Positions 16,301-62,004 of a stretch of DNA of 64,000 nt are shown here, piece by piece. Each line of letters starts with the position of its first letter. The first letter of the stretch is position 1. The notes beneath the pieces were generated by a model. The model searched no databases, was not told the origin of the DNA, and worked only from the letters and a program-made list of their open reading frames with translations. The translations under genes were made by a program, and so were the position numbers. The stretch is from Congeria kusceri (lineage: Eukaryota; Mollusca; Bivalvia; Myida; Dreissenidae): NCBI GenBank assembly GCA_027627225.1, contig CM051028.1:18929701-18993700 (forward strand), written 5' to 3'.

Positions 16301-19300
16301 TGGTGTATTTAACATCATTTAAGAGAAATATTGTTTGTGACGGAATGTAACTAACACGCTATACCATATACGATGACTTTGTTACAGAGATATCATCCAA
16401 TTTACATTAAATATTGAGAATAGATGTCAAACCATTCCATTACAATGATATTGCTAAACACATTGTTTCTGTTTCGGGTACAAAGAGAAGAAGTATTGCT
16501 GAAAGCTGAGAGTTTGGGCCTTCGATGCAACAGGTATATTGACACGCTGCTATCGTTTAAGTTGGTACGGGTGGCAGTTAACTACTCTGGTACCCACAAC
16601 TACCCAAGTACCCGTACAGGTTGTTTCATTTTAAATGTCTGTTAAGTGATAAAAATCAAATGAAATATTTATACCTCATCGCGTTATTAATACTTTGTTT
16701 GAAAACAACTGCCAATGATTTGGTGTTTGTTTGTATTAAACAACACAGACTCATAAAGCTAGAATGCTTGAGGCGAAGTAAAGGTATTAAACAATACAGA
16801 CTCATAAAGCTAGAATGCTTGAGGCGAAGTAAAGGTATTAAACAATACAGACTCATAAAGCTAGAATGCTTGAGGCGAAGTAAAGGTATTAAACAACACA
16901 GACTCATAAAGCTAGAATGCTTGAGGCGAAGTAAAGAGAATGATGGCAATAACTGTTCCTGTGGTTTATATAAGTATTTCAAACTGTTCATTTTCTATAA
17001 ACTGCAGGAGTAATGAAGATGGTCTATTGACGGGAACTACATAAACATTGCATTGAACAAACAATATTGACAAAGAACACCATCAACGTAACATTTATAC
17101 GGTATCATGTGTCGTTAAATTAAATTTGCACTTAATCTGTATTCTTTATTTTCATACAGATTGTCGGCTTAAATATATTGTCGGATGGACTACGTTTTAA
17201 TCCAAATCAGACAGACGGGCTTTTACTGTTCAGTAACTATTTGACGATCTGTTTTGGTACGTTAACCATTTATATTCATATCAACATTTACTATCGATGT
17301 CAACAAATTTGAGTGATCAATTTTTGATATATGATATAGGGTTCGCATTCAATAATAGTTCCAATATTTCAAAAATAATATAATTCTACTGTTTTCCGAT
17401 TCTGACAGCTCAGCAAAGATTAAGACTATTCAGATTTGTTAACAGGTTCTGTGTTAATAAACAGTTTACATGGTTGACAATATGTTTCCGATAGAAAAGA
17501 AATTGTTGTTAAATCTATTGTTTTATGTAATTAACAATGATCGAGTAGCGTTGTTTTATTCACTTGTTTACTTTTGACGAAAACTATATTTTCTGCCCCA
17601 CGTAGATTTAGAGACTGTACATAAACATTGTGATGAAAAATTGTGTTTGTAAAAACCGGAATTCTAAACATATACTTTATAATAATGTCGATTTTAATAG
17701 CTACAATATAACTCACATAAAGTAAACATTAGATTTCATTATTTGAGAATATTATACGATTAAATGCAATACAAAGTATACAATTTCCGTTCGTTATTGT
17801 AAAGTAAATTTACCCTAATCCAAGTGCAATTCAAAATATATAATTTCCGTTCCTAATTATATATAAAATTTACCCTATTCAAAATGCAATCTACATTATA
17901 AAATTTGCGTTCTTTATTGTAAATAAATTTACTCTCATCAAAATGCAATATAAATGATAAACTTTCCGTTCTTCGTTTTCAGTAACACTTTTCCCAAATC
18001 CAAATGCAATTCAAATTTAGATGGAACTATGTATGTTCAAACTAAGTTGTAATATATTTTTGTATAAAATTTAACAAACTGTTCACGTAGCCGGCTCCTT
18101 AGTAAGTATCATATTACCTTTATTAATCATCATCAAGATCTTTGATATTAGCACAAATTTTTAATATGAATTTCATAAGAACATTTTAAGAATGTCAACA
18201 GTTTTGAAAGGTAAATTGATAATACCACCAGTGAAATCATCTCGTTTATCATTAAATTTTAATATGGGTTGTATTTGTTTGGCCCTTTTCATGTTTACAT
18301 TTTGACGTAAGAATTGTGAGCATTTTGTATAACTATAGTTTACACCGGTATACTTACAAAGCGGAATAGCGCAGTTGGTTAAAGCACTGTCTACTGTCAT
18401 TTACTTTGTATGGTTCCTAAGTCGTGAGTTCGATATCCGCTTGGGGTTTTATTTTTTCAAATATGTTTGCTTATTAATTCTTATCAAATATCGCATTAGT
18501 TATTATACTTTTTGTTATTTATTTAATGTACATATCTCATTATAGCCCATTTCTATCATCTAATATCTTTAATAGTGCAATTGGAAAACAATTTTTCGTT
18601 GACATAGTCCATTTAAATAGCAATTGCCAATTATGTGCAATCTTCAGCATAATTTTGACTGTAATTTTTAATTTTGTGTATTGCTTTAAAACTTATGTGA
18701 ATTGTACTCGTAATTTTAAATTTAATTTTGCACAACGTGACGGAATAGCAATGTATGTATTAACAATATAATACTACATAAAAACTAATCTTCAATTTCA
18801 TTGGTTTAAAGTACTTAATATGCGATCAGGCGGTCAGAAATGTTTTGGGTTATTTTGTATTTGTGTTTAAGAGTAATGCATTCATAACACGAAGTTGCTT
18901 GAGGACAAAACTACCTAGGTACTACTTTAACATATTAATATATTAAAATGCATGATCACATGTATGAAACCAAGATGGCAGCTAATATTTTTATATAACA
19001 CATCTATTAATTTTGTTAAATTTTGATTATTTTATTTGAGACCTTGAAATATTGCTTAAAGTTAATGCATATAATATATAATTACCATATACTATATACC
19101 ATTATATGTACAAATACCTTCAACTTAACTGCGTTATTATAAAATTAATACATGTAGATTGTTAATATTGATGTTTAGCTATTGTTCAAACAACAGTAAT
19201 ATTGTCTATGAAAACTGGTTTTTAGCTCTACTGGTCGAAGGCCAGCAAGCTTATACAATGCGGTTCGACCGTCGTGAGTGCGTACGTGTGTGCATGCGTG

Positions 19301-22300
19301 CGTGTGTAAACTTTTGCTTTAAATGACATCTCCTTCGAAAACGTTAGAAAGACTGGATGAAACTTCAAAAAAATGTTCCTCGGGTGGTCCTCTGCCAATA
19401 TTGCTCTATTGGTTCTGGTCCCCTGCAAAAGTTGGCCACCAGAGTTATAAATAGTACACTATTTAAACGACACATCCTCTTAAATCCCCTGGGTTATTTA
19501 TTTTTATTATTTCACAGAAATGTTTATAATGTGGTTCTCTACGTTGCTTGGTTAAAAAACATGACCGGGGCGGAGCCATTTTTCCTTATATGGCTATATT
19601 GAAAACTTTGAAAACCTTCATGTCAGAAACCATTGGTTGAATTTCTAAATACTAGTAATACTTTCACAGGAACGTGCTTTGGGTGGTCTCTACCAAAATT
19701 GCTCAAAAGTTGCTAATATGGTTCCGCTACGTTGAAAAAAAAAGTTTGCCAGGGCGCGGACCATTTTTCCCTCTATGGTTATATTCAAAACTATGAAAAT
19801 CTTCATTATCAGAAACCAATCGTTGAATTTCGCAATAATTTCATAGAAATGTTCCTTAAGTGATTCTCTACCAAAATTACTTAAACGTTTTCGATCCGTT
19901 GAAAACCATGACCGCCAGGGTCGGGGCCACATTTCCTTAAAGGACTATATTAATATATTTTTTCCTTAAATGTCTATATTGAAAATTTAAAAAAAGCTTC
20001 CTTTCAAAAACCACTTACTGGATTTCAGAATAATGACACAAAATGTTCCTTGGGTAGTTCTCTACCAAAGTTGCTCAATGGTTTCGGTCTGTTGAAAGAC
20101 ATGGCCGCCAGGGGACGGGACCATTTTTCCATTTATGGCTATATTGGAACCTTTAAAAATCTTCGTGACAGAAAACACAGGTTGGATTTCGAAATAATTT
20201 CACAGTAATGTTCCTTGGGTGGTTCCTTATCAAAATACTTAATAATTATATTGATTTGTAAAAATAACATGGCCGCCATAGGATGAGGCATTTTATGCTT
20301 TTATGGCTCATCAGGGTCCTTGCATTTTTTTTCTCTTTTTACTTTATGAGCCAGTGGAGCGATACAGGCACTATTGTGCCTTCTTTTTCACAGTACGTAT
20401 TCCACTAACATCCATTAATTGTAAAACATAAAACAGTGCCAATGTTGTGAAGTACAAAATTACATGTACCAAGGGTAGATAAATTTAACATGATTTTAAT
20501 ATCTTCGGTATTGCAAATGTTTTCCTTTAAAAGTCGAAGAATGCTATTTTGTACATAATCGCTAGATGTTTCTGTTTCTATTTTGTAAATAAGAATTTCA
20601 ATAATGTAACAAGATAACATGTTGCCTCAAAGTAAGACTTGATTGTCTCAATACTAACTTTTAAATATTTGGTAAGGTTTTGTTAAAAACAAGTTATGTT
20701 TAAATGTTTACTAATGGTTATTGTGTATGTAATTTATCACCATAAATATGCAAGCATATATATTTAACAATTAAGAAATTATCACAAAAACGGTTAACAT
20801 CTGCATAAATACAAGCTTAATTGTTTTATTAACAAGGGCGGGGCTTTATTATTTTTCTAACAACGTGTGAATATTGTTCTCTTTCTAACATTGTAGCAAA
20901 CTTTTTCAAGGTTGAAACTCACAACACAAACTATCGTAACTTTTCTTGAAACAAGTAAGCATTAACTATACAATGATGTTTAAACGAAAAAGTTAAACCA
21001 AGTCAAGAGTGTAGGCAGATGGCACAGGCAGTTAGCCCGTTGCTATGATAAAAATTAGTGAACGCATCATTTTTCTGACAAATAATCAAGAAATGACGAA
21101 AACTACTTTTCTGACTGTTTACTATAATATATACAACAAGGTATGCAACTCCAGGCGCCCAAATTATAGGATGCATTGGTTTGAACATTCATAACTTTAA
21201 TCACTTTAACAAGCTTGGATACATTTTCTCAAACTTGATCTTATTTGAAGCAAAAATAAATTTCCGTTCAGGAAATGTACAATACTACCCATGGTGTTGT
21301 TATAACATGATTGGATATAAAGATAAATATTGGAAAAACACATGACATCAAGCTGACCGGTCCCAAATCAGTTATTTACGAAGTGATCTTTTCATAAATA
21401 TCAATAAAATCCAAATTTGTAACACTCTAGTCAGCCAAAGTACATAATAAAAAACATCACTTGCCTTAGATTGACCTTTGTATGTCATATATTTATCCTT
21501 AAAAGGGCATTTATATTAAATGTGCTTCCATCAACCAATTGTTTACATATCACATTTTGTGTTTGATGTTTGCTCCCAGCCCGACAACGAATAGCAGACT
21601 GTCTCGCTCGGCGGCCGATATATTGAGACCATACTTGGAAAAAACTGGGGTTTCCGCTCAATAACTCGAGAACGAATTGAGATATTTTCATGAAATTTCA
21701 TACATAGATATCTTATATCAAGACCTCGCTTGGGATTGCATATGGGTTGGGTGGATTCAAGGTCAAGGTCACTTAAAAAGAATTTAGAACAACGGTTTCC
21801 ACTCAATAACTCGAGAACGATCTGAGATATTTCTATGAAATTTCGTTTATAGATACCTTATATTGAAATCTCACTTGGGATTCTAATGGGTTAGTAGGGT
21901 CGATAGAAGAGTGCCATTTCAAATTATGCAGTAAATGTTCATTCATAGTGTTTGGCTTCAACCTCACAATATAGAATTAGTTTCTATAAATACAATTCTT
22001 TCTTTCATATGAAAGCATATTCACTCAGGTCGGGATTCAGAACATAATGAAAACCTGGTTCCGTAGCATGGCCACGTTTCTATTTTTCTTTTAGTACTAA
22101 CTTTAAGGCATTGCGTTAGAAAAAAATAGGTTTTCGTGGAACTTCCGCGTTTCTTGTTTTATTTTTAATTTCAAAATTTAGTAATACATGTTCTTTTATT
22201 TGTAGCATTATACTTGTATTGATGTCTTATTTGTAAGCTCAAACATGTATTATTGCGATCGATTATAATTAAAGATATTCTTCTTAATAGAGTGGACTCC

Positions 22301-25300
22301 AGCAAGTAAGTATTAACATTTCCATCGCTTTTAATAAATATACACTTATTTACATTCCTTAACTAAATCAAGCAACAAATAATAGAAATTTATATTTACA
22401 AATAAATCATATAAAACTTATAATATTATGAGATAGTATTGTTGGTCACCAGCGAGTAAAACCATTAAAGATGTTCTGTAACAAAAATGCGATTTTCAAC
22501 TGTAAACAACTGCATATAATCCTTATTTATTGACGTGTTGTAGTTGTTATTTTACATTCGTTTCCTAATATTTATGAAAACTTCACATGTTATATATACA
22601 GATCAGTTTCCACTTTGTAATTATTCATTTTAATTTAGCTTACCGTTCACACAAGTCAATTTGAACTTTAATATATGTGTTTAAGATTTAACACGCCGGG
22701 AAATAATCTCAATAACTGCAGAAATTGTCGCTTCGTCGTATATTGTAATTTACAGAGTAAAGCGTTTGCGTGTCGAATCGCATTGGCCGATTTTTTAGCT
22801 TACACGAACTCGAAGTGCTCAATAGTGAGATTTTGTGGTCAGTGGTTGTCCGCCGTCCTCGTCAGTCGGCAATAATTAACTTCAAAATTCTTCTCATCTG
22901 AAACCGATTGGTAAAAATTAACAAAACTAGGTATAGAGCACAGAAGGCCAAGAACGTTCCTTGGTCGGTGCTCTACCTAAATACCTTTAAAAAAATTGTA
23001 TGGAGTGGTATTTCGGCAAAAATAATATCATGCCTGATGGCTGTTACATTTTGCTTGTTGATACTGCCATTGTGCAAACTGTTACCATCGTCACGCTTGG
23101 TAAAAATATTATGGTGGGGTATTACACCATTACAAATTACATCATGCCTAATGGGTTTTTCAACATGCTTGCTGATATAGTCATTGTGCTTACTGGTACA
23201 GACGTCGTGCTTGCTGACAGTTTCATTATGCTGGTTGACGATGTCAATTTGCCTGTTGAAAATGCCATCATGCATGGTGACATATACAGATTGGTTGCTG
23301 ACAGTGGGGGTATTTATATTATGGGTATCACAATGACACCATGATGTATGAACTATTTATATCAATGTGAATCAAGCGCTTTTGAACCAGTTAACACATA
23401 AGACGAATTTAATTTGCAAGCATGCATTAAACAATACGCAACATAGCACGGCCTAATTATGACGAACACGTTCGTAGATAAACGGAAGATAATATATAAG
23501 CAGTTTACGTTGTCCACGTTTTTATAATGTGCGTGTCCACGATTTTATTTCGCGCTAAGTGTTGCCTATGGTCACGAAGAACTTCATGCCGGCAGGAATT
23601 TTATAAGCTATGCTCGGAACCAGTTAAATCTGTGCACGGAGGTTTCTTAAATACGTCAAAACAATTTGGCTATGTTTGAAAACACGGTGAAATAATAATC
23701 GACCATGATTGGGGAATTGTAAAGTAAGTTATACACTGTCTTTTTATTCTTTATATATAATTACAATTCCAACGATTTAAATAAGTAATAAAAATGATAT
23801 TGATTTATGGAGCAATTTAAAAAGGATACGTTCCATATGCACGACCGTACGCTATTTGATACTTTTAAATGGTACATGTAGTATCCCTTTAAATTCGAAT
23901 GAAAATTCGAAAGAAAGGGAAGTTGATAATTCAATTGGATATTTCCGGCAATTTTCTCCGACAAGTAATTTCGCTTTGCAATATTGTATCTCGCATTCTG
24001 CTGCTTGCTGCCTACTTACATCTCGCTTAGTGGTTTATCCGTGTAGTGCGTTATGGGTGTTACTGATTCATAAAGTAAACATATCGTCGTGAAGGGTGGC
24101 TCTTTCATCAAGCATGTTAGAATTATAAGAAAGAATGATAGCGCTATAATTATATGACATATAATTATGAATAGGGCATACTAACGCGTCAACAAACATG
24201 TTGGAACAGTCATCAAGCATGTTGATACAGTCATCAAAAATGTTGGAACACTCATCAAGCATGCTTGAACAGTCAACATGCATGTTAGAACAATCAACAA
24301 GCATGCATAAATCAGGCATAATGTGATTTTTCCTAAATACCCACCATAATTTTGATTCTTTAAAAATAATGGCCTCCAGAGGCTGGGTCTTTTTTCGGCG
24401 TAGCTGTCTAGCCCAACATTTGAACTTTCTCATCATCCAATAAAATGTGAAAATTTCCGCCAGTAGACCCAAATGATTTAATTCTAACATTGCATCGGCT
24501 TATTTAACCGATAGCCCCACCACAGCCTGTGCACACTGGCTCTATCTCTCTTTGGAGCTGAATGGAAAATGAGGCAATTCAACTTCCAAGGTGCAGTTCA
24601 ACAGGAAATTAGTCAAAAACGTAAACAACTTTAAGAACTAGGTCTGCTTTATTTCTTCACTACAACGATTCAAACTGTGTTTAAACAATGTAGTCCCACG
24701 TACTTAGAAATTACCTCGGTATCCCACTCAACATATATGCAGACCTAATTTGCTGTTTACAGTGCATTGAGGACTGTTATGAGTGGTAAAATCGTGTCGA
24801 TTCAAACACAATTTTGACATTTGCCAATGTATTTAAAAAATTTTCGCACAACATTTTCATTCACCTCCAAGAAGAGGTGAAGCCATTGTTTACAGGCCTT
24901 TGTAAAATCGCCCGTTAATATCGCATTCGACAGGCAACATGTCATGGATAACACTCGCTGACTGTGTTATGAAATACTGATATGTCTACCTAATTCTCGT
25001 GTAGAGGCTATTCAATCTATACATAGACATTCTTTATATAGACTTTGAAAGTGGGGAACGATGTACCGGTACATGTATACGTCAAAATTGTATTTCTTTT
25101 TCGGCATAGCAGTTTAACCCAACTTTTGGTTGGCTTTTCTAAATATCCAATATTCGGCTGATTTGAAAATATTCGTAGTAGACAAGTCATACTGAGACGG
25201 GCGCAACATTCCAGAACTTTAGAGAGTAGCGAATGCTAGTAAATCCAACTTTCGAGTGCCCCTTCTAAATTCGTACACAATAGGCACTGTGCCGCACACT

Positions 25301-28300
25301 ATAAACAGTTATTGCGTCTAAGACAGTGCTCCCACCGCATGAATTGTGTATATTGCTATTACTTCTACTATTGCAGAAACTCATGAATTAATCGATCCTG
25401 GACTTCAAGGTCAGTGCCAGGTCAGTCTGTCATATAGCTAGAAACTATATTTGAAGTTGAAAGGGAACAAGACATGTCTTTAAAAAAGACAATCTGCGTA
25501 GAAATTAATATTGCGATGTCATTTATTTGCCCTAAATATAATACAAGAGGACCTAGCTGTGACTTCACGGACCCCATATTTTTCGTTCCCTACTAAGGAG
25601 ACATCTTGGAATCCAGCTTTTTCGGTCCTACTAAAGAGACTTCTCGGACACTAGATTTTTCGGACACTATAAGAAAACGTATCGGCCCCCAAAATTAATT
25701 AGAGATAAACTCAACAATTATATATATCTGTACAGTGAATAAACCGATAATTTACCGCCCCATGTTTTCACCAGTGATACATGAATAAGCTAAATACTAG
25801 TAATTTACGTAAACATAATGGATATATGAAAAATTTGTCAGGCAAATTTTAAAAATTAACATTGACAGCAAATAATAGCGGGAATTAATTAGCAGTAAGT
25901 TTATGATTTCCCCATTTATTGAAATTCTCGGGTTTAGGATTCTCCAGACGCTAATTGATGCGTGTGTATTAACACAGCTTTACCGCGCGCTATTTTTAGA
26001 ATGATTCTCCGCAAGAGTTGTACTCGCTAGAATTAATTCACGGGGACGAAAGTCGGTTACAATAATATTTTTACACATTGATAAAATAATATGAAATATA
26101 AGCTCAATCAAATTTGCTAGTATTTGTTTTGCTTATTTGTCAGAAAAATACCAGAAATTTACCACTTTATATTTTGTGCTTGCGAGCTCAACATGCAACA
26201 TTGTACACTGTGACAGACTGTCGTACCCGTGAATTGTAAGATTATATTTGCTATTTATAGAGCGCCGATTACGAAGGCTAAACAATGTAGTTATTTCATT
26301 ATGTGAATGAATATAACATTCTGATCATGACATCTTCCGCCAACAGTCTAAAATCAAAACGCTGACAGCGTAGAAAGACTGTCGGTAACGAAAGAAACTA
26401 AAAGCATGAAACTAAAATTTTTAGTGCATTTTTGCTAAATAGGAAACATTTGTTTTAAGGAAGTTCAATTTACCTCGTTTACACTTGTTAATATGACTTC
26501 TTATTCTATAGTATACGACATCATAATAAAAATATATTTGTAAATTGAGTAATTAAATCAGCACCGAGCACATATTTTTCAAGCTAATTATCTAATGCAA
26601 ACGGAAGATTTATATGCCAGTTAGCAAGTAAATCTTTAACGAGCCATGCAGAATAACCGATAAAGCGTGGTAGTAAGGAGCATCGATTGTTGGTGATTCG
26701 TAGCCTTCTGAGTCAAAAGTGAGTCATACGATGCATGCTCTCGATTTTTCATACTACAGTATAAAATTAATAAATTGCAGTAATTTGTTGTCAACATATT
26801 CAGAATAAGGATCGGTAACAAGAAATAACAATTTCACAACGAGTCAAAGATAACCGATGTAGCGCATTACTTTTGTGGTCTTATTCCAGGACAACTAGGT
26901 GAATATTTGGGTTATATTCAAGTAAATAGCGAAAACATGGGGTGTCTTTAATTTGACGGAGCATTTTCAATAAATTGACTTTTTTTTACAAACTGTGATT
27001 TTTTTTAGAAACTGTGATTGTAAATCACATGATATACACATTACAATACACATGATATACATTATCTTAAATGATTAAAAGGTAAGAAATTATTCGTGAA
27101 TTTTTGCTGTTTTGAAAAAGGACCCTTTCAGATTTCCATTTACTGACTCGTAGCTTGCAAAGAAAAGAAGTAGTTTTCCGCGATACCTGTTTTGGAAATT
27201 ACCATCTCAAAAGACCGTTGGCTTCCGCCAACACTCTAAAAACAGCACTTGTTATTTTTATTCAAAAGGTCGACATATTTAAAATAATATTATGGTTTCA
27301 AATAAACAATTCAGCATCAAATTGTAATGCGCGCAACATAAACAAGAAATGTCTTTTAAAAAGACAATCGGCGTTGAAATTAATATTTATATGTCATTTT
27401 TTGTTTTAAATGTAATATCTGAGGACGGTTACGTGACTTCTCGGACCCCAGATTTATCGGTCCCTATTAAGGAGACTTCTCGAACCCCAGATTTTTCGGT
27501 TCCTACTAAGGAGACCTCTCGGAGACTATATTTTTCGGACACAATAAGAAAAAAGGAGAGTTAATCATTCTAAAAATAGCGCGCGCTAAAGCTGTGTTAA
27601 TACACACGCATCAAGCTTCCGGAGAATCATAAACCCGAGAATATGAATAAATGGGGAATTTATATTTATAAACTTACTTTGCATGTTAACTTGTATTTGA
27701 ATTGTGGTTGCGTTTCATTAAGAATTATTTATAATTGAACCTTTCGATCAACTTCTCCAGTAGAATTTATTCAATCTATAAAATTTTTCAACATCTTCTA
27801 TATGTAAAATGAGGTGAAAGAAGTCTCATAATACGTCAAAATGTTATTCACGTTACTTTATCTTCATTTGCGAAGCATGAATACACTATGTACAATATTA
27901 ATTATACATAACAGAAACTCGCGTTTTGAATATGAATAACCGAATATCAAATTTGTAACTGGTTAACTGCTCATGGTAAATTGGTTAACTAATGATGAGA
28001 TAACCGGCTAATTACTTTACTGTCAGTAACCAATGACTGGCAAATTCTCTCAAATCATTTTGAATCGTTAAACACATGGTCGGTTTGAGGGTAGTTTACT
28101 TCATGCGGCTTTATTGGAAACTTTTTCTAAAAAATCGTCTTGCCTTAAACCACGAATGAGCTTTCAAAATAGTTTCATAGACATGTTCCTAATGTGACTA
28201 TCTACCAAATTATTTCCAGACATTTGTATTCGTTCAAAGAATGGCCACCAGGGCCGGACAGTTTTCCTGATTTAGTTACATTGAAAACGGTAAAACACAT

Positions 28301-31300: not shown

Positions 31301-34300
31301 GCCGCGTACCAAATACAAACCCTTTGGGCATTGTGGTTTCAGAGAAGAAGATTTGTAAAGTCTACTTGCCATATAAGACTATAGATACAATGTGACCCCG
31401 GGGCGTGGCTTCTTTTTATCCCGGTGGCATAAATTGAACTTCCTGCCAAATATGAAACCTCTGGGCTTTGCGGTTTCAGAGAAGAGGAATTTTAAAGACC
31501 ACTTGCCATATAAGTCTATTGAAACCATATGACCCACAGTATGACCTAGAGAATGTCACGTGTCAAATACGAAAGCTCTCAGCCTTGTGGTTTCAGAGGA
31601 AAACGACGTACGACGGACACAAAGCGAATACAAAAGCTCACCTGGGCAATTTTTCTTTCAAATATTTTATATGTTGTTAGATTGGAATATGGATAAAATT
31701 GGTATCAAAATTTAGGCTATAAATTAAACCAATCAATAATTTCAATTCGCAAAACAATTCGCCAAATATTTGTAATATGAAAATGAATTAAATTTGTACA
31801 TAACAGTCTGTTTCACAGTAACATTGTAGGTGTGCGTTTGTTTTCAATAACCCGTTTCGTCCTTTATAATAATCAAGGCTTGTACATACAAGTTCTTCTG
31901 TGCTTACGCTTAGCTTAGTTATGTTTAGTTTTAAAAGTTGTAACTACAAACAATGTAAACTTTAACTTCTATTTACAACACCATGTATGATAATCTCATT
32001 GTTCGACTTATAGATTAGATGCTCCAAATTAGTTTTGATGTTATAAATTTAGACTTAGAAGTTATTTGAGATGTCTATACCTTAAAAAATAACAAGACAA
32101 AGTATGTTATGGATTTAAATCACTTTCAAAAGCATCCGATCCTTATGTAAGGTGGTCGGACAGCACATTTACAAAAGGATAGCCTTTAAAATCTCGCACA
32201 CAAAACGCTATTACAATTTGTTCGAGTTGAGTGACTGGATCTGTAATACGCCTATGATATATGAGGTCGGTATAGTGTGGATTCTGCCCATACAAAAATG
32301 TCTCAGAATCCACCGATTACGTCTAATTATTTGGACTAGATCTTAAGTTGCAAAATGGTAGTCGGTTGTAAAACGTCTGTTAAGTAAGAATTTGTTTCGC
32401 CTTATATAATGGTGCTTTATTGGGGAATATATACGTTGCGTATAGTATGAGAACTTGTACAATCTGTACATATCTTTTCAATAAATTTGTCCCTTTAAAT
32501 GTTGGCTTTCGCTTGATTAAATGGGTTTCCACTTATAATGCTCACTATAAAATGCATGTCAATCCGCTCGTCGGTTGCATTTAAATGTTGGCTTTCGCTC
32601 GATTAAATGAGTTTCCACTTAGAATGTTCACTGAAAAATGCCTGTCAATCCGCTCGTCCGTCGCATTTATATGTTGGCTTTCGCTTGATTAAATGAGTAT
32701 TCCAAGTCACGAATCCCGGATTGACAGTCCAGCGCTTATCAAATGAGCTAGCCGGGCCCGTCACATACTAATATAATTTGTATAATATGTGTTATGCTAT
32801 TTTGTATTTTACACCGGTGTTAATTCCTTTACCTAATTCCACAGATAAATTTTATTTTTGTAAATTGATTAGTTTTATTTCACAATATATTGATGATACA
32901 TTTTCTTTTTAGCTGCTCCCGCACTTACAAATGGTATAAGTTTTATATAAAGTTTCTATAATATGAATATAAATTAACTTGAAAAATTTATATCTTAGCA
33001 AATTCATTATTGTTTTAATTGAATTAAATGTACACAAATTGCCTCAATTTAATTGAGATGGACTTTTCTCCTTCGTAAATAATTTTTTTTAAACACTAAA
33101 TTTCACAACAACATAATAGAGAAAGGCATTACTTGTAATCAATGAACTACTTTACCGTATAGCAATTAATATATTTAAGTTAATTTTGATTTGTGAGTGA
33201 GTCTTGTCTTTGCAATTAAATGTTGATTAAATTTATTTCAGCGCCAAATGGTAAGTGATATATTTAAATTATTTACTTTGTATTTGAAATACACATAGGA
33301 ACGCACACACACACATTCACATAATTCTGTAGTGTATTTATCTATATTGATTAATTAACAGAATGACGAGATTGTTCTTCTTTTATTCTAACTGAAGTTA
33401 TTTAATAGTATAAATAATAATCTAATAATTTTATAACAGGATATGTAATATTATTAATAATCTTAATCCGTCTGTCAGTACTTTAATATTAAATATCTTA
33501 TTTTTAAAATGTTTCCATCGTTAGGGTCGAGATAATTGCATTTCTTACTAAATCATTCTTACTTCGTTCCAGCTGCACCTGGTTTGACGTATGGTATGTT
33601 TATTTTTGTGATAAGTTGTATCGTATTTTAGTCCTTTGTTTTAGATGAGCTTATTAATTCTATGTGGTAAAACAGTAGATGGTGTCAACGAATGACACCC
33701 TCACAGTTTCACAGTTGGTCTAGAGATTTTATAACAGCATTTAGCGACGCCAAACACAGAAAGTATGACATATTTTAACAAAGATACAACGATTAATAAC
33801 TACATATACTGAGTTTTAGAATTTTTACAATGTACATACTTTGCACATAGTTAAAAGTAGAACCAAAGGTGACGAAACAGATCAATTAACATGTATTTAT
33901 TTAAGTGTTGCTGATTATTTTCTTACCACGTCATCGTTGTTAAAACATGTACAACAGTTAACTGTTCATGATTATTGTTTGATAAAGAATGCAAACAGGC
34001 CCGGAAAAACTTTTACCATCTAAAAACGCATACAAAATGAATAGAAATCAAATATATAAAAATATATTAATGGCTAAAAGTAAAAAGTATAAACAAACTA
34101 TAAAATAAATTTGATAATTTGGATAAATCCAACTTAATTAATAGAAACCGAACATTAAACCCAAAGCAATATTTAAAAGTTATAAATTATAAACAAACAG
34201 CTAGAACGGACGCGAGTCTATTCGAATTATACACATTTTTCAAAAACTCTAACTGGGACGAATCTATGAGCAATAAAAATAGTTGGAAAATATGGATTAT

Positions 34301-40300: not shown

Positions 40301-43300
40301 TTAATAGGCTTACAAAATGTCCCAATTCTTGACCTCCACGTAGCTATATCAATTCCCATTTTGCCAATAAATGACAGTGACGAGCGCGCACCTACTGCGT
40401 TACAAAGGCCCACTTTGCAGTCGATTTTTAATCGCTAGTTTATTTGTGTCCACAGGCAAAATGGTTAAACCACGGACCAATAAAAAAAAAACAGGCTGAA
40501 TACTTATCACTCAAACAAATCCTCGTGAAAACGTTCGGTGAAAATGTCCTCTTGTTCTCAGAATAGACAAAGAAATATATTTTGTTCGTTCTAAAACACC
40601 CCTTTATGTCATGTTTTTAGTTTTCTATTAACATCGCGTTATTCACAGCAACTTAAACTTACTTGCAGTTCAATTATTCAATATCCATTGCACACTAAAA
40701 GTTTTAAAATCCCATATTTTAACAAAGCGAAACAAATGCACGTCATTGCCATAAATATGGCTTTATGTGGTGGAAATTTGGGATTCTGGAAACCTAAACA
40801 CTATAGAAAGGATACAATTAAAATTCCTAAAATGCATACTTAAAATGAAAAAATCTAAGCCAAATTACATGGTTTATGGCGAAACTTGAGTAACTCCTGT
40901 TAGTATTGACGCCCAAGAAAACCTTAACGGATTTTGAACTAGAATAATAAACACTAACACCAATGACAACAACAGCAACAACAACAACAACAACAATAAT
41001 AATAAATATAATTATAATTATAATAAGGCTACTACTACTACTAATAATAATAATAATAAGCTCTCAACAATAATTTACCACAGTATTTACCGAAAATGTT
41101 TTAATCTACCTACAATATTCTGAAACTAAATTGCCCATGTTTTTTACCTTATTTCAATTTTCATCAAATATGGATTACCTCAAATCCGGCAAACTCATGA
41201 CTATCCTAATGATTAATGGTTAAAATTGACAATCCGACAAAAATTACGTGATCTTTTTATCAATCATTTGCATTCCAATATAGAATCGTCTAGCAAAAAT
41301 ACGTTTTAATGAATATTTAAAATGCGTTTCGGATTTGAATCGTACCTGAAAATTTGACCATTTCTAGTGTTATTTTGTATGGTGAAATTTAGAACAAGAA
41401 ATCATAGGCTACCCATTGAAACTGGACGTTGGAACAAAAACCCCTTAAATGGAAGACTTTGTCAACACTGTAATAAACTTGGCGACGAGTTTCGTTTTTT
41501 CCTAGAATGCCCAATGTTTGAAAATACAAAAGCAATATATAAAAAGATATTATAGTACAAACACAGACAACTAAAAATTAGAACAGCCTATAAATGAACG
41601 AATAAAACTCTCAGAAATGATTAAAACAATCTTAGCAATCATCAAATGATGTATGTACTCTCCTCGGAGGATTTAGGTATGCCTATTGTTGGATTGTGTT
41701 AAATGATCATATTTACTAATTTAATAAAGTACTATCGTCTTTTTAAATTGACTGATAATATTCTCTCTGAATTCCAACCCTGTGCAATAGTACAAGCTTT
41801 CGGACCGGTGTCCTTAGATCTTACACCAGACCGGCGTGAAAATAACTACTTAGCCATTAGTTGAAAGACTTCTCGGGATGTCTGTTGCTGTTTTTATTGT
41901 GATTGATTTGCAAAACATTTAGGTTTTAATATTGATACTATTCTATTAAAACATGTATGTGTTATGTTCATTTCTATTTTCAATTAGTTAATTATTCTAG
42001 AACATGTATTAAAATGTGTCTTTATGTTAAATGTTTGCAATACAAAAACTGTGTTATTCGTACACAATTATATTTACACTACGTTACCTTCCAATTCCAG
42101 TTCCAGGAAGTAAGTATTTATTTATTTTCTGTAACAATTACTACGAAACACATTTGATTTTTTTCTAGCTATGTATTGATATGCATTTTATCTGCTTAAG
42201 TTTATGGCAATCATCACCTAAGAATCAAGACCATTGACTTCTAGCCAATATGAAATATTAATGCCGTAAAAAGGGCATCCTAGAATGTTGCCGCCTCAGA
42301 ATGAATTACAAATATCACAATCGAAATCACTACGTTTATCATAATTATAGTTTGATTTCAATACAGTTATTTATTATATACTATGTATATCCTCCAATCA
42401 GCCGTTGTCATTCGTGTCACGTGACCGTACAATATTTCACCATATTGGACGCGATCGCGTTCAATATATTTCGTATTGATCGGTCCCAGAATAAAAATAG
42501 GATAATGTCCGAGTATTCCAAAGGAGAACGAATATGTAACTTTTAGTTTTACATCAGTGTTGACTCCGATCTACTGCTTAGAAAACGTCTTTTAAAATCA
42601 GCAACAATAATTTTTAAATTCTTATATTTCACATATATCCAGTTCCACGAAGCTGTATTTATGCTTGTCAACCATGCTAACCAGAAACGCGATTTGTTTT
42701 CGAAATCGTGTGGTTAGAACGTATGCGTTGTGTAAACGTAAATGTGTCCCCAAAATTGTATCCGATTATTCCAAAATAGTTTTATAATTCAACGAAGAAA
42801 GTCGTATTTAATTAACCGTTTGTAACGTTATCTGTACATATGCGCCTGCAAGTTGCAAGTTGTAACATGCACAGAACATTCCTGCAGTCCATTGAAAACT
42901 GTTTTAAGTCGCCAGCTTATATCGCGTGTGCACCTGTGTATTTTGGTGCAGAAGTGTCATATATCAGCGGAGTTATGGTATTGTTTTAGCTAAAAATTTG
43001 ACATATTTTGACATGTGTCACTGGTAACTCAAAAAATATAACTGCTACACGAATACAACTTAACAGAAATATTCTTTAGTATGTGAACCTTTGCACCTGG
43101 GATAGTAATTGCATAGGGTGCTGTGACAACCAGCGGAATGTGGGGACACCCGTTTCCTTTGGACATATGTCTAGTTAATATATAAACAGGTATGCGTTCA
43201 GCCGAGCAGGAATCGCACTAGTTAGTGGCCATTATGTTTCAGTGTTTTCCTGGATTCGAATTTGAACATTGGATTTCAATGTGCATACATATGTATGTAG

Positions 43301-46300
43301 TATGTAGTAAACATATCATGATATCACGTGCTATTGATATCGATCAAACGTACCGGAGGACAGGTTAACGCATTGGTAAAACATAAAGCCGGTCGTTATT
43401 GGCGCGTGACTTTACTGAATAATACACCTTTTTGACGAAAACCAACAGCGTTTTGTTCGTTATCAAACCCCTTTGATGGACGGATAACGGACTTTTTATG
43501 CTATAATACGTGTATGGACGCTTACTCAACGGGTGTTTTAGGTTAAGAAACACTAGTTAACGAAGCAAAAGTCTGCAAATGTGTATGTGTATTAATTCGA
43601 CATTTAAGTTGTTTCATCGTTGTTTTAAGCTTTTCTATGACATTTATTTGCTGATTTTAAAACATTATTTATAAAATATATTTTATAAATGCAGATTTTG
43701 ATCAAACAAATAAGGTTTACCAATTCGGTCAAGGAAAGAATGCGCTGTCATTCATCAACTAAAATAGCGATTGAATGACTAGATGCAATATTTACCAATA
43801 TATCACATGCAATGATTATAAAATAAAATTTAAAAAAATCTTAAAAGCATTAAACATGTCCTGTAATTGTATCTAGCACGCATCGTGCAATTTCTCACAG
43901 CAACATTTGTGTTCTATAATTCTTACTGTTAGTCATTTTGATTATTTTATGTATTCAATTTAATTAATTAATTAATTTACATTTGTTTTTTCGATATTTA
44001 TCCATATTTCACTTGTTTCAAACGCAGTGTTTCCAACTTGTAAGTATTAACCTTATTTAACTTACTTCTGACAGTACTCAGTTTTGACTTTAAAAATAGA
44101 TAAATTCACTCTGGGGAATGGACTGTTGGCAGCACCAACGTTCGCGTTTTGACAAAACATTATCGCCATGAATTTATCTTGAGATGCCGATATTGGCAAA
44201 TGGAGTCAGTTGTATGTTAAATTCTGTATTTTCACTTCTTGAAGTCAAAAATATGTCTACGCTTTACTATAATTGCAAAATGCTGTGAAAATTGCGAAAT
44301 CAGATCTTGTATAACTGTTGGAATGTTAACGGTCTCAATTTTGACAAGAACAGTATGGACGAAGTGAATTTATTTATAGTTCAATGCGTTTTAAAATCAA
44401 ATACTACCAAAACCCGTTACCTAATGTAGAATGTTAATCTTAGAATATGTCCATCTTTTTTTCGGCATCGGAAATGTGAATTTCTTAATTTTGTGTAACA
44501 ATTGTATTACTTAATATAGGGTTTAAAATTGACAATCTATGCGCTAAGGTTTGTTCTGATATATAGAGAATAACAGGTTACTGTCTGGTCTTATGTAATA
44601 AATCAGGTGAGGCTTAGAATAATATAACGGCGAGGCTTGTCGAGTCCTTATTTTATTCGTGCCGAACCTGATATATTACACAAGACCAGGCAGTAACCTT
44701 TTTTACATTTATCATACCACATTTTTCGTAAAATACCACCAAACGAGCTGATTTTTATATATTTAAAAACTAAGGGCGGCGCTGATTTTGCTGAGCCGAC
44801 TTTTACACGTTCACGTACATGTAGTTATGGATTTCTAAAAGTTGACTGGATAATAACTTATTATAAACATTTCGTAATGATGAGTGAACTGTTTTCAATA
44901 CAAATACATAGATTACATGCATGCTAATTCATAAAATACTGAAAATGCGAACTGAAATGGATTGCAACGATCAATTTCATCGGAGAACACAACGCCAAAT
45001 TATTTGGAGAAGTCATTTTGGAGTTGTCTATTGAAATTGGCATTTCCAAGATAGTGTCAATATTGACAGTATTTGACTAAAGTGCGTTCAATTTTTGGTA
45101 ATAATGTTTTTGGTTCAACATAAACTGATGCATTGTAGTGAATTTTAGTGCATTTATTATGAAAGCATTGAAATAAATGTGTATGGATGATTTATTGTGT
45201 TCCATAGATGACGTCATCTCACTACCAAAGTGCGGGTTTATGTGACTATTAAAAAAAAACGTTTTTGTGATTTATGACGATTAAAAATAATAAATATATG
45301 CGTTCTTGGTATCAAATTTTTGTTTTGTTGAATCTGATTCAATTTTACGGAAACTGTTGACTTTATAGTTGATTCCGAATAATATGACGTACCTCCAAAC
45401 ATTGACTGATATAAACGCTAGTAACCTGATATATAAAAAATATATCAGGCACCTTTGTATCAGGCCGATATCTGCAAAGTGGTATGATAAATAAATGTTG
45501 GATGTATTTGAACCTGTGCAGTGAATGTTGTTGCTGTGTGCGGCAACAACAACCATGCAACAGTCCTGCTTCAACATGCTGATCATTGTCGGTTTAGATG
45601 AAACCTTTGTAATGTATGTCCATGTCTTGTATAAAGTACTAGTACATAACAGAATAGTAGAAAGGATGTTTGGTGTTGTTGTGTGTATATGTCGTAAAAT
45701 AAAACTGAAAGAACTGAAAGTCAATTAAATAAATAGTAATTTTATTATATTTATTCAACTTTAAGCACAATATGTGTTCACAATTATGTTTAGCACAGAC
45801 ACATTTACCTGACACTCATGAACTTGAATTATTTCGTACATTTTATACTTGGGTGTACGGATACAATAACTAGGTATTTTCAGTGAATTACGCATGCATC
45901 GATTTAACTTTATTCTAGTACGGAAATATGTTCATCGTACGGGACTTGTAATATGTATTTGTACATGTATATGTATATGTACATATCGTATAAGTTACTA
46001 GGATTTGTTTAACCTGTTGCTGTAAAAGTGTACGTTGTTATCTGATATGGATAGTCGGATTATTTTTATGCTCATTTATACAGATGTTCCTGTCAGTAAG
46101 TATAGTTTTATTTATCTTAATGTCGTTATTACGGATTTATACGCAGCGCTGACCCGTAGTGTTTAATAATCATATACAACCTTATTGTAGCATGTTTCTC
46201 TTTTAATGCAACATCAAAACATATGGATTTTCATGCTTCGGTAAGTAATGTCATGTTGTAAAGCATGTTAAACACCTTTACATTTATGAGAGTGTGTTTA

Positions 46301-46552
46301 TTGTATACTGTATTTGCCCTATGTATTGGGACACTTAAAAATAATTACAATTTTTCTTGTCCCAATATAAAGGGTCATAAAAAATAATTCCCTAAAATGT
46401 GTCCCAAAATATAGGGTAGTATTCGACCCAAAGTATTTTCACACACACACCGGTTGTCGTTATGCCGCGTGCTTAACTGAGTGGAGCGTGGCAATTAAGA
46501 ACACCGGGTAGTAAAGCGTGTTAGTACACAGTTTGCACCACAAGTCAATTAC

Positions 46553-46585
<33 letters not shown>

Positions 46586-49500
46586 TTTATTAGCTCTTAA
46601 GCATACAATTGCTTTTTAGCCATAAACAAAAAAAATAACACAAGTGCTATACATGGATTAGAAAAATAGGAAATTAGGTAATTATAGAAGTTAAAAAATA
46701 ATGTAAGCATCACTTTAATATTTCTATTAATTGTCATTCAATTATTTTATATAACATTTATAAAATTAATACATAAATTGTTAAAATGTATTTAGGTTTC
46801 TAAACTATTCCTTAATTGGTTTGCATTGTATATATATTTTGAAAGATTGAGGATTTCCTTTTTATTTTGAGTCCTCATTAAATCATCAAATTTATTTAAT
46901 GTTGGCCATCTTTGAAAATAAGGTTTCAAATATGTTTTTCTAATATCTCTGTATATTGGACATATTAACAAAAATGGTATTCGCTTTCTATGACATTGAG
47001 ATTGCAAAATTTACACTTTCTATTTTCTCGAACAATATTGTTGTATCGACCTTTTTCTATTTCTAATCTGTGTGATGACAAACGAAATTTCGTTAACGCA
47101 ATTATATATTTTTTGTTTTAATGATATCAAGATATTTTTCTGTATCAAAAGTGTCTTCCATGCGGCTGTATGTGATGAGTCTTGGTGAATTGTTTATCTC
47201 ACTGTACCAGTGTTGTTTGTAATTATCAAATAATCGTTGTTTGATAAGACTGTAAGTGTATGTTTGTTCGGATTTTTCTGTAAGGGTTTCTTGTCCATTC
47301 CATATGTAAATTAGGCCTAATTGTTCGAGTTTTGATTTGATTTGATATGACCAATTTCTTTTATTGTGTGAAGTGTTATGTTCCGCGTCATTTAGCAGTA
47401 ATGCATGCGTTATTTTTATAAGACTAGTCTCTGTTGATGAGATTATTTTCAACCAATATCTAAACATGTGTCATTTTCTCATAACATATAAGGGATATCT
47501 TTTTTAATTCGCCATATAATGCTAAAAGATTTGTTGATTTATTTACACACAGTATTTTTCTTAAAAATTTTGTATGAATAATCTCTAACTCTTTTCCTGA
47601 ATTATGACCCCAAATTTCTCCGGAATAATGAAGAAAGGGTGTTACTAATTTATCAAAAATATATAATTTTTCTTTGGTTTGGAATTCATACTGATTTATT
47701 ACAGAGAAAAGTCAATGTAATGCTTTGCTACCGTGCTCTGATATTGATTCTATAGTTCTATACCAGTTTCCGTTTTTAAATAAATAAAGTTACACCTAAA
47801 TATTTGAATGATGTTACGATTTCTAACCCTTATCCGTATAAATAAAAATTAAAATGCGTGTGTCGGTTGCTTTTTTCGAAAATAACAACTTTTGTTTTGT
47901 TAGTGTTAATTTTAAGTTTGTATCTGTTACAATAACTTTCGATGTCATTTAACATTGATTGGCCTGATATGGGTGAGGTTGAGAATAAGACCTGGTCGTC
48001 AGCGTATGATAATAGGAAGAATTTTATGTCATCAATTGTTATGATTCCCTCAGTATTAGAGTTTACATTTTCGATGATGTCATTAACAAACATCATGCAC
48101 ATGATGCTTGAACAAGGGTCCCCCTGTTTTACACCCATGTTTGAGTTGATGTATTCGGACCTTTGATTATATAACCTGACGGCTGCTCTTAATGATGAAC
48201 ACATGGCTTCATGAGATACCAGACAATTATCACATACTACCGGGTAGTTACCCTAATAATGGTAACTGTTAGTTGACATTAATTGACAATTTTATAGTTT
48301 GTTATAAGAAGTTCAATAAATTATTTAATATGAATATCATCCTACGCAAATGACGTAATACATGCATGAACATTTTGAAAACGGTAGTCTTTGCAGTTTT
48401 TATTGTATAAAAGGTGTACACTCTTATTATTTGCAGCATATCTATTGCAATATACAGTGTACAGTAGATCTATACTAATCGGGTCATATTGAAATCCAGA
48501 GATATTTATTTTTAACTGGAAAAATTGAAGACAATGTACCATTATGTTTTTGTGTCCCAATATTTAGTGACAAGAAAAAAAAAAAATTTCAAAAGTGTCC
48601 CAAAAAAAAATGTTAAGGGACTCAAGATAGGGTAAATACGGTATGTATGTATGAAATATACTTCCGTATTTTTTAATTCTGATTTTTTTATTTCAGTGGT
48701 CAGCACACGTACGCATTTATATTCATATATTTATCCTGTTTAAGCCCCCACTTTAGAGGGGGGGAAGTTATATAGATTTGCCCTTGTCCGTCCGTCCGTC
48801 CGTCCTTTCGTCCGACCGTCCGTCGGGTATTTTGGTGCAGTTTTTCGACATCAGCGGAGTTATAGCCCCTTTTTAGTTAAAAATGATATTTTTGGACTTG
48901 TGTCGCGCGTAACTCGAAAAGTATTGCTGCTAGAGTGATGAAACTATACAAACATATTAATCAGCATGTATATGTATGAAATCTACTTACTTCCGTATTT
49001 TTGTATTCTTATTTTTTTTATTTCAGTGGTCACCACACGTACGTATTTATATTCATATATTTATCCTTTTATGCCCCCACTTTAGAGGGGGGGCATATAA
49101 TTTACCCTTGTCCGTCCGTCCGTCGGATTTTTGTGTCGCGCATAACTCAAAAAGAATAACTGTTAGAGTGGTTAAACTTTATAAGCATATTCATAGGCAT
49201 CGGGGCTTGTGCACCTGGGTATTTTGGTGCATTTTTTTTCCGACATCAGCGGAGTAATGGCCCTTTTATTTAGCAAAAAATGACATTTTTGGACTTGTGT
49301 CCCTTGTAACTCAAAAAGTATTATTGCTAGAGTGATAAAACTTTATAAACATATTAAACAGCATGTGAACCTGTGCACCTGGGTATTTTGGTGCATTTTT
49401 TTCAGATATCTGTTGAGTTGTGGCCCTTTTTAAAGCAAAAAATGACATTTTTGGACTTGTGTCGCGCGTAACTCAAAAAGTATTACTGCTGGAGAGATGA

Positions 49501-51803
49501 AACTTTATATGCATATTAATCAACATGTGAACTTGTGCACCTGGGTATCTTGGTGCAGTTTTTTTACATCAGCGGAGTTATGGCTCTTTTTTAGCAAAAA
49601 ATGACATTTTTGGACTTGTGTCGCGTGTAACTCAAAAAAGTATTAATGCTAGAATTTTGAAACTTTATAAACATATTAATTAGCATGTGAACTTGTGCAC
49701 CTAGGTAGTTTGGTGCAGTTTTTTCCGACATCAGCGGAGTTGTAGCCCTTTTTTAGCAAAAAGTCACATTTTTGGCTTTGTGTCGCGTGTAACTCAATAA
49801 GTATTATTGCTAGAGTGATGGAACTTTATAAACACTTTAATTAGTATGTGAACTTGTGCACCTGGGTATTTTGGTGCAGATTTTTCCGCCATCAGTGGAG
49901 TTATGACCCTTTTTTCGACTAATGAAACTTTATAAACATATTCATCAGCATGTGAACTTGTGCACCTGGGTATTTTGGTGCATTTTTTCCGACATCAGCA
50001 GAGTTTTGTGACAACCAGCGGAATGTGGGGGCATCCGTGTCCTACGGACACATGTCTAGTTTAATATGTGTTATGTAATTTTGTATTTACTTATGTTTAC
50101 TTAATCCTTTACTTAATTCCAGAACATAATAGTATACGTTTTGTCAACCTATTATTGTTATTTGACAATCAATTCAAGGGTATTGTTTGTTTTTTTTAGC
50201 TGCCCCTGGAAATGCTACACACACCATATTTAGAATAGTAAAACACAGCTACCTGTAAAAGCGCCATAATAAACAGAAACATATCTACATGTATATATGC
50301 ACTGTACTTTATGTGTGAATTAAACGCTTATTTGACTTTACGTTTGGGTTTTAGTGGGATCTATTTCTTTATAACAACATATTCTATGAGTGTATCTTTA
50401 GTACTAAACGAACGTAAACTTCGACCAATCATTAATAGCAATCAAATGTTGAGCTGTTCTGGCCATGCGTATTAATACAAAAACATGTTTTAACATGCCG
50501 TGTCAAAACTGGTACTTGATTTCGCTTCACGTTAGTAAAGAGTTGGCTTTCAGCGTCAAACTATGCCCGACAGCAAGAAAACAGCGTAATCCGTAATATA
50601 TATTGTATTGACTACTTTTCCCTATATTTTTTATATTAATGTCAGTTAGGAATTATTAATGTGTCCTGTCTATGCAGTTATAAATTTAGTTAAATTTTTA
50701 TTTCAGCTCTAAATAGTAAGTATACATTAACTATTGTCTTTTTTGTATTGTGTACGTTTGATAAATTTACTGACAGTGTATGTAATGTCATTAGTTCATG
50801 TGCTTTTATTCCACTACGCGTACCCGTGTACATAGTATTCTTGAAACGTTTCTTAATAAAATGACCCGTAATGTTTGTTTCCTCTTTAAATTGTTAGTCA
50901 GACAATTTGGACAGCTTGTACGAAGCAAATTTCCAGAAACTTGGATTTGGGAGAAGCATAGTGTCGGGTAACTTATCTTATATTGTAAATAACATCGGTC
51001 CAATTATCCCAAAGGTTAATTGGTTACACATTATTTTATATTTTAGAAATAATGTCTGTTATTTTGAAAAATTATATAAAAAAACGATACAACACTCATG
51101 ACACATAAATACATGTATATTAAAATAACGTTTCAGTTACGTATATTCATCAGCTGAAATGGTTTAAATGATTAACCGTTTATAACGATTGAATTGGAGC
51201 AATACTTCTATTTTTGTCGTTGAAACTTTTTGAAAACCTATGCATCTACCTCTAACATAGCCTTAAAATATACGTTAATGTATATTAAACCCAATGTAAG
51301 CTTGACAGACGCGGAATCTTTTTTGATACAAAATTTCTTTTCCTTGGTTTAAATGCTCATATTGTAAAGTTAAGACCTGTACCTTTTTTCCAAAATGCCA
51401 ACAACTGTGAACAAGTCCTCTTAGTATGCAAAACTACTTTAGTATACAATAGGTCTTATATTCGCGTGTGGAATTTTAATTTATAATTAAATGTGTTTTT
51501 AGATGTGCGACCATATCTTCTTTGCCGCAAGTATAACTGTTACTTATTGCAGACCGTCTGGGGAATTACAAATTACTAAAAAACTGCCTGACTCCTTAAC
51601 ATCTTGGATAACTTCTGCGTTTTCTACAAATGCGATGTCAGGCTTGGGTATGGCGGATAGCATTCCAAAGGTTTGAATGACTTGAATGACGGCAAAAAAT
51701 CATAAACTGACGTGCTAGAATGTGTAGTAGTACAAAAAATACTACTACATATACAACTACTAATACTACTCCTACTTCTGTTTCTACAACGACCACTACT
51801 ACT

Positions 51804-61953: not shown

Positions 61954-62004
61954 TTAACTCCTCCGGATCTAATAGGTCTTTCCGACCTATTGTTGCTGGT
62001 CCGA
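61927..62004. repeat. Perfect 27 bp inverted repeat made from the Penelope RT start
   Basis: The left arm 61927-61953 (minus-strand FRPIVAGP coding) and right arm 61978-62004 are exact reverse complements across a 24 bp spacer. The right arm thus is a second RT start in opposite orientation. Confidence 0.93.

Follow-up and report, generated by a model that had tools for sequence, protein, structure and literature searches.

A probable ordered array of in-frame microexons in the bait-coding part of a thioester-containing protein gene of Congeria kusceri

How is the bait of a thioester-containing protein (TEP) encoded when the two exons that flank it lie 33.6 kb apart? The question is raised by a gene of the bivalve Congeria kusceri, located in a stretch of 64,000 nucleotides (positions 18,929,701 to 18,993,700 of contig CM051028.1) which is called the window here. 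The preliminary description had proposed that microexons make up the bait, which lies between exons 12 and 13, and this part of the proposal is very probable in view of the splice signals, the homology to bivalve baits and a paralog. From the sequence, the interval is very probably the bait-coding part of the TEP gene and holds nine or, probably, ten microexons of 9–21 nt arrayed in order, all in phase 1 and with lengths that are multiples of three (3n).

The TEP gene and its candidate microexons

The gene is a TEP whose nearest proteins are CD109-like: the best matches in the protein search bear the name CD109 antigen-like. The thioester motif GCGEQ, the criterion for A2M/TEP proteins, is present in the exon at 55449..55625 (HGCGEQNMVDFAP; + strand, like all exons given here), which was located by tblastn to P0001 and P0121. 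A profile search detects the A2M domain PF00207 (36.4 bits, above the cut-off) at C5:18982161-18982280, which is 52461-52580 of the window; the corresponding exon, 52464..52577 (MDLPDYIVKGEEFLLQVSVFNYLP), was also placed by comparison with P0001, and another A2M-domain exon lies at 51553..51670 (tblastn to P0001). The C-terminal part includes ATICEVCPLCEWC; in the available text of PMC7016707, a cysteine stretch at the C terminus is the criterion for iTEPs and a GPI signal that for CD109. Rfam gives no match at gathering scores within the window, and the thioester exon has no match in a phage collection.

The exon 5′ of the bait, placed by tblastn to P0001 and P0121 (GLNILSDG..LTICF, 17160..17256), ends in phase 1. 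The FPETW exon 3′ of it (50898..50967; tblastn, 82% to P0001) starts in the same phase, so that the flanking phases had been read correctly. Most of the other exons located in the gene measure about 60–235 nt. The exon at 15161 has an atypical donor (GAG/gtccat), and an exon guessed at 16503 was replaced by 16142-16216 after comparison with P0001.

Ten candidate microexons had been proposed between these two exons, and all ten were found in the sequence; each is bordered by AG and GT, has a 3n length and keeps phase 1. Their lengths (9, 9, 9, 12, 12, 12, 12, 15, 21 and 21 nt, 44 codons in total) had been given correctly, and most of the donors, six out of ten, are indeed gtaagt. Microexon 1 (22291..22305, 15 nt, EWTPA) has a modest acceptor score and is backed by the EWTP of P0121 and by the chain search described below. 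Microexon 2 (32913..32933, 21 nt, (A/T)APALTN) and microexon 4 (33573..33593, 21 nt, AAPGLTY) both correspond to a PAPGxTY module; microexon 3 (33242..33250, 9 nt) encodes APN. They are followed by microexons 5 (42101..42109, 9 nt, VPG, module APG), 6 (44028..44039, 12 nt, (M)FPT, module xFPT) and 7 (46084..46095, 12 nt, (Y)VPV, module WVPG). Microexons 8 (48697..48708, 12 nt, (M)VST, module xVPT/LVST) and 9 (49027..49038, 12 nt, (L)VTT, module LVTT of P0003) are copies of a tandem duplication that includes their flanks. Microexons 2 to 9 are supported by bait alignment and chain search, and all of them except 2 and 6 by splice score as well; the donor score of microexon 2 is weak and this exon is absent from the 22 best of the single-exon ranking. 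The candidate microexon 10 (50707..50715, 9 nt, (P/A)LN; splice score 6.1) is the least supported of the ten: the chain search does not choose it, and its ALN aligns, weakly, where P0001 has ALD. An xIPT module was sought between 33250 and 33573 and none was seen.

Splice signals and homology to bivalve baits

The preliminary description had cautioned that such short exons can occur by chance. Their number in the bait intron is not what chance gives: splice score only (length 8–24 nt, acceptor ≥1, donor ≥1, sum ≥6) retains eight 3n candidates on the + strand and none of 3n+1 or 3n+2 length, compared to a mean of 0.58 in simulated introns (maximum of 4 in 1000 simulations). On the − strand the same thresholds give no 3n candidate, three of 3n+1 and one of 3n+2. 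The splice matrix is generic and was built from the splice-site consensus; a first matrix, trained on the window gene's own exons, had misplaced boundaries and was replaced. In control DNA of the same genome, stretches of 80, 70 and 50 kb contain 2, 1 and 1 3n candidates on their + strands and 2, 3 and 0 on their − strands, respectively.

The eight candidates are 26890, 33242, 33573, 42101, 46084, 48697, 49027 and 50707. All of them belong to the proposed ten except 26890, which is also the exception among the top five matches of one splice scan, where the other four were already on the list; since 48697 and 49027 derive from one tandem duplication, the count of independent candidates is lower by one. 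The splice scores of 22291, 32913 and 44028 are modest and fall below the threshold. Apart from the proposed ten, 26890 (9 nt) and 25377 (33 nt) score equally well, and both are left unused by the chain search.

This search, which ran without the preliminary list, reaches a score of 95 in the bait intron and recovers nine of the ten microexons and nothing else. The − strand scores 23 and the remaining parts of the window 28 and 17. The maximum is 35 in 200 Markov-1 simulations, 47 in 983 Markov-2 simulations and 40 in 20 overlapping windows of real control DNA.

The spliced chain of 45 residues scores 108, 103 and 102 against the baits of P0124, P0003 and P0125. Random AG/GT chains of equal lengths give a mean of 23.3 and a maximum of 40 on the + strand (2480 kept of 5000 drawn), and 24.0 and 46 on the − strand (1767 kept of 5000). 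Shuffled targets (150 of each of four) reach at most 67, reversed targets 55 and other TEP baits 56 (n = 112); the match is thus not due to composition alone. APGxTYAP repeats are also present in an unrelated gastropod VWFA protein, and the similarity of the modules could therefore be partly convergent.

Spliced in order, the microexons align one per module with baits that are contiguous in the relatives from Mercenaria and Mactra. The Mercenaria TEPs P0124 and P0125, the Mactra TEP P0126 and P0003 share these modules and their order, with alignment gaps of 4 and 12 residues; they are known here as proteins alone. The order test is only moderate: when the ten exons were shuffled 2000 times, 23 arrangements scored at least as high as the real one (best 135). 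Two Mercenaria TEPs are 76% alike in the bait, compared to 27% in the part that precedes it and 39% in the part that follows. P0003 comes from source 'lgn', on a contig of 4.5 kb.

The genome also contains a paralog (C9:19.63 Mb) that has its own array, with unit lengths in the same order and similar peptides. Its five candidates of 12-21-9-12-21 nt (KVPI PYPGFTY APQ AITP TSPGSLD), which were picked after inspection from the ten listed on the + strand, align without gaps with P0126 (score 72, 13 of 21 residues identical). The chain search scores 58 there, against a Markov mean of 6.0 (maximum of 31 in 1000) and 0 on the − strand; it omits KVPI, includes an extra unit of 6 nt, and assigns APQ and AITP to target residues other than those of the ungapped alignment. 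Two further loci considered as close paralogs, C9:36.34 Mb and C200, proved to be another TEP, near-identical to each other, and served as real-DNA controls.

The closest proteins to the window gene are the CD109-like P0001 and LOC127872415 (P0121) of Dreissena polymorpha. P0121 shares the cysteine immediately 5′ of the bait (PTAC-V, and LTIC-F in the window gene) and reads C-V-EWTP directly after the same exon, at the place of microexon 1. P0001 differs in its long bait with GGTMTGT repeats and ShK-like modules. The nearest Dreissena relative is present as two models, P0121 ending within the bait and P0006 beginning after it; they sit on contigs of equal length and we infer that they are one gene. 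P0121 terminates with ..PGSK, which would be expected if a phase-1 donor A/GTAAG had been read through.

State of this copy and use of the array

The preliminary description treated the locus as a working A2M-like gene, which agrees neither with the CD109-like nature of its closest proteins nor with a 5′ half that is disrupted in the assembly. There is an even chance that this copy is a pseudogene, in which case the array would be genuine and come from a functional ancestor but would no longer be used. Seven or more disabling differences, all of which lie 5′ of the bait, point in this direction. The exon at 1258..1379 (P0001 and paralog comparison) has a frame-shifting deletion near 1296 and a TAA at 1377; a lost donor at 1376 was rejected, because the paralog has CAA-xxx-G/gtg and the window thus carries TAA. 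Compared to the paralog, the exon at 3318..3443 lacks one acceptor base at 3318 and has an in-frame TAA at 3378. A frameshift near 14035, an in-frame TAG at 14896 in the exon at 14824..14931 (tblastn) and an MG1 frameshift outside the window are the others found. The first domains are also missing from P0121, and the paralog at C9:19.63 Mb itself bears at least two disabling differences. However, neither stops nor frame breaks were seen in the microexons or, from 15510 onwards, in the aligned parts of the exons as far as the C terminus, the splice sites of exons beyond the window having been inspected roughly; and assembly errors could account for the single-base losses.

That transcripts contain varying subsets of the microexons and so yield a pool of baits is possible, but we consider it unlikely from the sequence. 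All the units are 3n and in phase 1, 48697/49027 is a duplicated pair, and the P0001 cluster comprises 19 sequences, the two names listed being isoforms X10 and X6. Mollusc TEP baits do undergo alternative splicing, as the accessible part of PMC7016707 reports. Unit duplication would also yield this symmetry, however, and ordered inclusion accounts at least as well for the homology with relatives whose modules are contiguous and in the same order. A query of 386 residues for transcript products of the same species returned nothing near-identical (4 matches with E ≤ 1e-10, 26–75% identical).

It is somewhat more doubtful that the array codes for a mucin-like spacer and not for a protease bait. 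The 45-residue chain contains 8 residues each of Pro and Thr and lacks both Lys and Arg, and the gastropod VWFA protein has comparable repeats; but the array occupies the site of cleavage in A2M-family proteins, and A2M is functional with Gly-Ser repeats for bait, according to the part of PMC8267569 available, so that the sequence is free to vary.

A conventional bait exon in the intron, or mutually exclusive ones, with minor microexons, would resemble CfTEP and BgTEP2 as they appear in the accessible part of PMC7016707. This is very improbable, since tblastn with P0001, P0121 and P0006 gives no + strand intron match with E < 1 among those listed, and the microexons hold most of the top places among single candidates of ≤75 nt, though the 57-nt 38246 ranks fifth. 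Chance AG/GT motifs can practically be set aside: relaxed-threshold matches also occur on the − strand (5, versus 14 on the +), but the homology tests, the chain search, the simulations and the paralog array contradict this origin.

Known systems and meaning

Alternative splicing of the bait region is known in mollusc and insect TEPs (CfTEP, BgTEP2 and Drosophila Tep2), according to the available text of PMC7016707. The likeness lies in the same gene family, the same protein segment and variation at a bait that splicing defines; BgTEP2 also has 12 exons over about 30 kb. In CfTEP and BgTEP2, as the same text has it, the exons are mutually exclusive and each is a whole variable region, whereas those of the window encode 3–7 residues, several per bait.

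The MEGs of Schistosoma, in the accessible parts of PMC8293314 and PMC10526429, contain series of small symmetric exons, mostly 3n in length, which lie amid long introns and can be skipped in frame. The ten microexons, all 3n and in phase 1, could likewise be removed without a change of frame. MEGs consist chiefly of short exons and encode secreted parasite proteins, whereas the array is limited to a single part of a large gene of ordinary type, most of whose other exons are of conventional size; no relationship by descent is suggested. The claim of a new diversification mechanism was too strong, as variably spliced symmetric microexons have been described in the MEGs in those same parts. Both they and the mutually exclusive bait exons of TEPs are known; their combination appears in no report retrieved, and a literature search, mainly at the level of titles and abstracts and with thin coverage of subscription journals, found no microexon-built bait.

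In the proposed architecture, a Pro/Thr-rich repeat would be encoded at one module per microexon (PAPGxTY, APN/APG, xFPT or xIPT, WVPG, xVPT/LVTT), with one further residue from the codon divided at each junction. Splicing would join the microexons in their genomic order, usually the whole set, to form a flexible arm ahead of the FPETW segment, and cleavage of this arm by extracellular proteases would trigger the thioester. Because all the units are symmetric, their gain, loss, duplication or skipping keeps the frame; the length of the bait and its cleavage sites could shift in small steps through evolution, and possibly through alternative splicing. This copy, with its decayed 5′ half, may no longer make protein.

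A broader and distinctly conjectural idea is that bivalve TEPs have combinatorially spliced arrays of microexons for bait and that paralogs also exchange the symmetric modules, in view of the two Mercenaria TEPs that are more alike in the bait than on either side of it. If true, the bait would be a kit that is rearranged within the transcript pool and between genes. The array may explain why automatic annotation splits such genes at the bait, as in the P0121 and P0006 models, and since annotation breaks there, the diversity of bivalve baits may be underestimated. It would show an immune protease trap which alters its bait by 3–7 residues per step while the reading frame remains safe.

The gene and its bait intron

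The window (C5:18929701-18993700 of a 1.549-Gb genome) carries on its + strand a gene for a thioester-containing protein (TEP), whose closest proteins are the CD109-like TEPs P0001 (57% over 44% of the query), P0121 and P0006 of Dreissena polymorpha. These matches suggest that the animal is a bivalve with kinship to Dreissena. The in-window exons run from MG2 (1258) through the thioester domain (GCGEQ, 55449-55625) to 59843; outside the window are MG1, on its 5' side (L025), and the exons for the C terminus, on its 3' side (L024). The domain labels, such as MG1-MG4, are putative. The bait, the segment where proteases are expected to cut, falls at a ~33.6 kb intron between exon 12 (17160-17256) and exon 13 (50898-50967). 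Open frames on the minus strand within and around this intron (6136-7011, 36481-40434, 46792-48252 and 61469-62026) seem to resemble mariner-type transposase and LINE-type reverse transcriptase.

At least seven disabling differences and one 27-nt in-frame deletion are present in this gene, every one of those found being 5' of the bait. The disabling differences detected fall in its first part, from MG1 to about MG4 (1258-14931; L025 8072-8232), and the aligned exon parts are open from 15510 onward. The closest paralog found in the genome has at least two (MG1 is frameshifted, and an MG2 exon contains a TGA), likewise in 5' exons. In both copies, these differences reflect either decay or assembly error: single-base losses within short runs could be assembly errors, which is less likely for substitutions giving stops.

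An array of microexons and its modules

The preliminary description placed ten symmetric microexons in the bait intron (starting at 22291, 32913, 33242, 33573, 42101, 44028, 46084, 48697, 49027 and 50707), and the array is borne out as described. Joined in genomic order, they encode EWTPATAPALTNAPNAAPGLTYVPGMFPTYVPVMVSTLVTTPLNI, then RQFGQLVRSKFPETW, some residues being created by junction codons alone (e.g., the M of VPG-M-FPT, the L of VST-L-VTT). A protein search with the bait of P0003, a protein from a 4.5-kb contig, matched five proteins: P0003 itself, P0124 and P0125 (Mercenaria) and P0126 (Mactra), whose baits are built from the same modules, and P0127, a gastropod protein which is not a family member. 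The modules of P0124 follow the order PAPGVTY-APN-NIPT-PAPGMTY-APG-QFPT-WVPG-MVPT, against which the exon lengths in the window are 21, 9, (a missing 12), 21, 9, 12, 12 and 12 nt. From this comparison, each microexon appears to encode one module. In addition, APGLTYVPGMFPTYVPVMVST of the spliced chain and APGSTYAPGQFPTWVPGLVST of P0125 are identical at 15 of 21 positions, without gaps and across four junctions.

After its homolog of exon 12, P0121 continues V-EWTPV-QTTTPQNWYPGSK, which supports microexon 1. This protein seemingly ends by read-through of a microexon donor; its terminal GSK would be expected from read-through of a donor A|GTAAG in this phase. P0121 and P0006 are possibly a single gene, annotated as two models divided at the bait. 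The baits of P0001 and of P0109 (Mytilus galloprovincialis) contain ShK-like cysteine modules (Pfam PF01549 is listed for the former; recognized by eye in the latter) and GT-rich repeats.

Microexons versus chance

Judged by splice signals, scored with a generic matrix that uses no peptide information, the microexons are not the product of chance. At the chosen threshold the + strand of the intron has eight candidates of length divisible by three (seven of them among the ten) and none of other lengths, compared to a mean of 0.58 and a maximum of 4 in 1000 simulated introns. A stricter threshold leaves five candidates (26890, 33242, 33573, 42101 and 49027), four of which belong to the array (40 simulations: mean 0.175, maximum 1), and a relaxed one gives 14 on the + strand, including nine of the array, and five on the - strand. 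A strand and length bias of this type was absent from other real DNA of the same genome.

Homology also argues against chance. The spliced ten-exon chain scores 108 against P0124; random AG/GT chains of matching lengths, those containing stops being discarded, peak at 40 on the + strand (2480 of 5000 kept) and 46 on the - strand (1767 of 5000). A chain search, which joins candidate exons and is guided solely by splice scores and by these four baits of the P0003 type (P0003, P0124, P0125 and P0126), reaches 95 with nine of the ten microexons and no other exon. Its controls score 23 (opposite strand), 28 and 17 (remainder of the window), and at most 47 in 983 second-order simulations, 40 in 20 overlapping real control windows, 67 with shuffled targets, 55 with reversed targets and 56 with the baits of 112 other TEPs. 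The order of the exons is a weaker point, since shuffling these exons 2000 times gave 23 orders that score at least as high as the real one (best 135). Two candidates with strong splice scores, 25377-25409 (33 nt) and 26890-26898 (9 nt), are unused by the chain search and could be additional exons or chance.

Inheritance and working model of the bait

The paralog is a P0001-like gene on the minus strand of C9:19630001-19690000. Its bait intron, 5.2 kb long, offers ten candidates on the + strand, some of which overlap, and four on the opposite one. Five units which we chose among the ten, of 12, 21, 9, 12 and 21 nt (splice scores 5.6, 10.1, 14.0, 10.6 and 9.2), encode KVPI PYPGFTY APQ AITP TSPGSLD, and include the xIPT-type unit lacking in the window array. 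The peptide aligns with P0126 without gaps (score 72, 13 of 21 identical). The chain search scores 58 here (opposite strand 0; maximum 31 in 1000 simulations), with four of the five chosen units plus one of 6 nt, and puts APQ and AITP on different P0125 residues than the ungapped alignment. That one genome contains two arrays whose unit lengths follow the same order is the best evidence of a real, inherited architecture.

Within the window array, microexons 8 and 9 and their flanks arose by tandem duplication: of the 51 bases in 48670-48720 (intron end, exon and donor), 43 are the same in the two copies, as are, in ungapped register, 15 of the 60 flanking bases upstream and 43 of the 70 downstream. 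A 162-bp tandem repeat of about five copies (49131-49915) lies between microexons 9 and 10.

The Mercenaria paralogs (P0124, P0125, P0105) are alike in the bait and little else, or the reverse. For one pair of these TEPs the shared fraction is 76% in the bait, compared to 27% before it and 39% after it, and P0105 and P0125 are 83-87% identical outside the bait and 60% within it; whole baits thus seem to have been exchanged or re-created. The similar repeats in P0127 make convergence of baits possible.

Bait splicing is described for CfTEP and BgTEP2, via mutually exclusive exons, and for Drosophila Tep2 (PMC7016707); symmetric microexons are described for schistosome MEGs (PMC10526429, PMC8293314). 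Our literature search found no description of the two combined. In our main reading, the whole array would be spliced in order into a Pro/Thr-rich arm; transcripts with varying subsets of microexons are possible. By analogy with A2M, whose bait is an unstructured 39-residue segment of wholesale replaceable sequence (PMC8267569, PMC9352918), such an arm would be tolerated. Lys and Arg are absent from the spliced chain, so trypsin-like cleavage within it is not expected, and elastase-, chymotrypsin- or metalloprotease-like enzymes would be likelier to cleave it.
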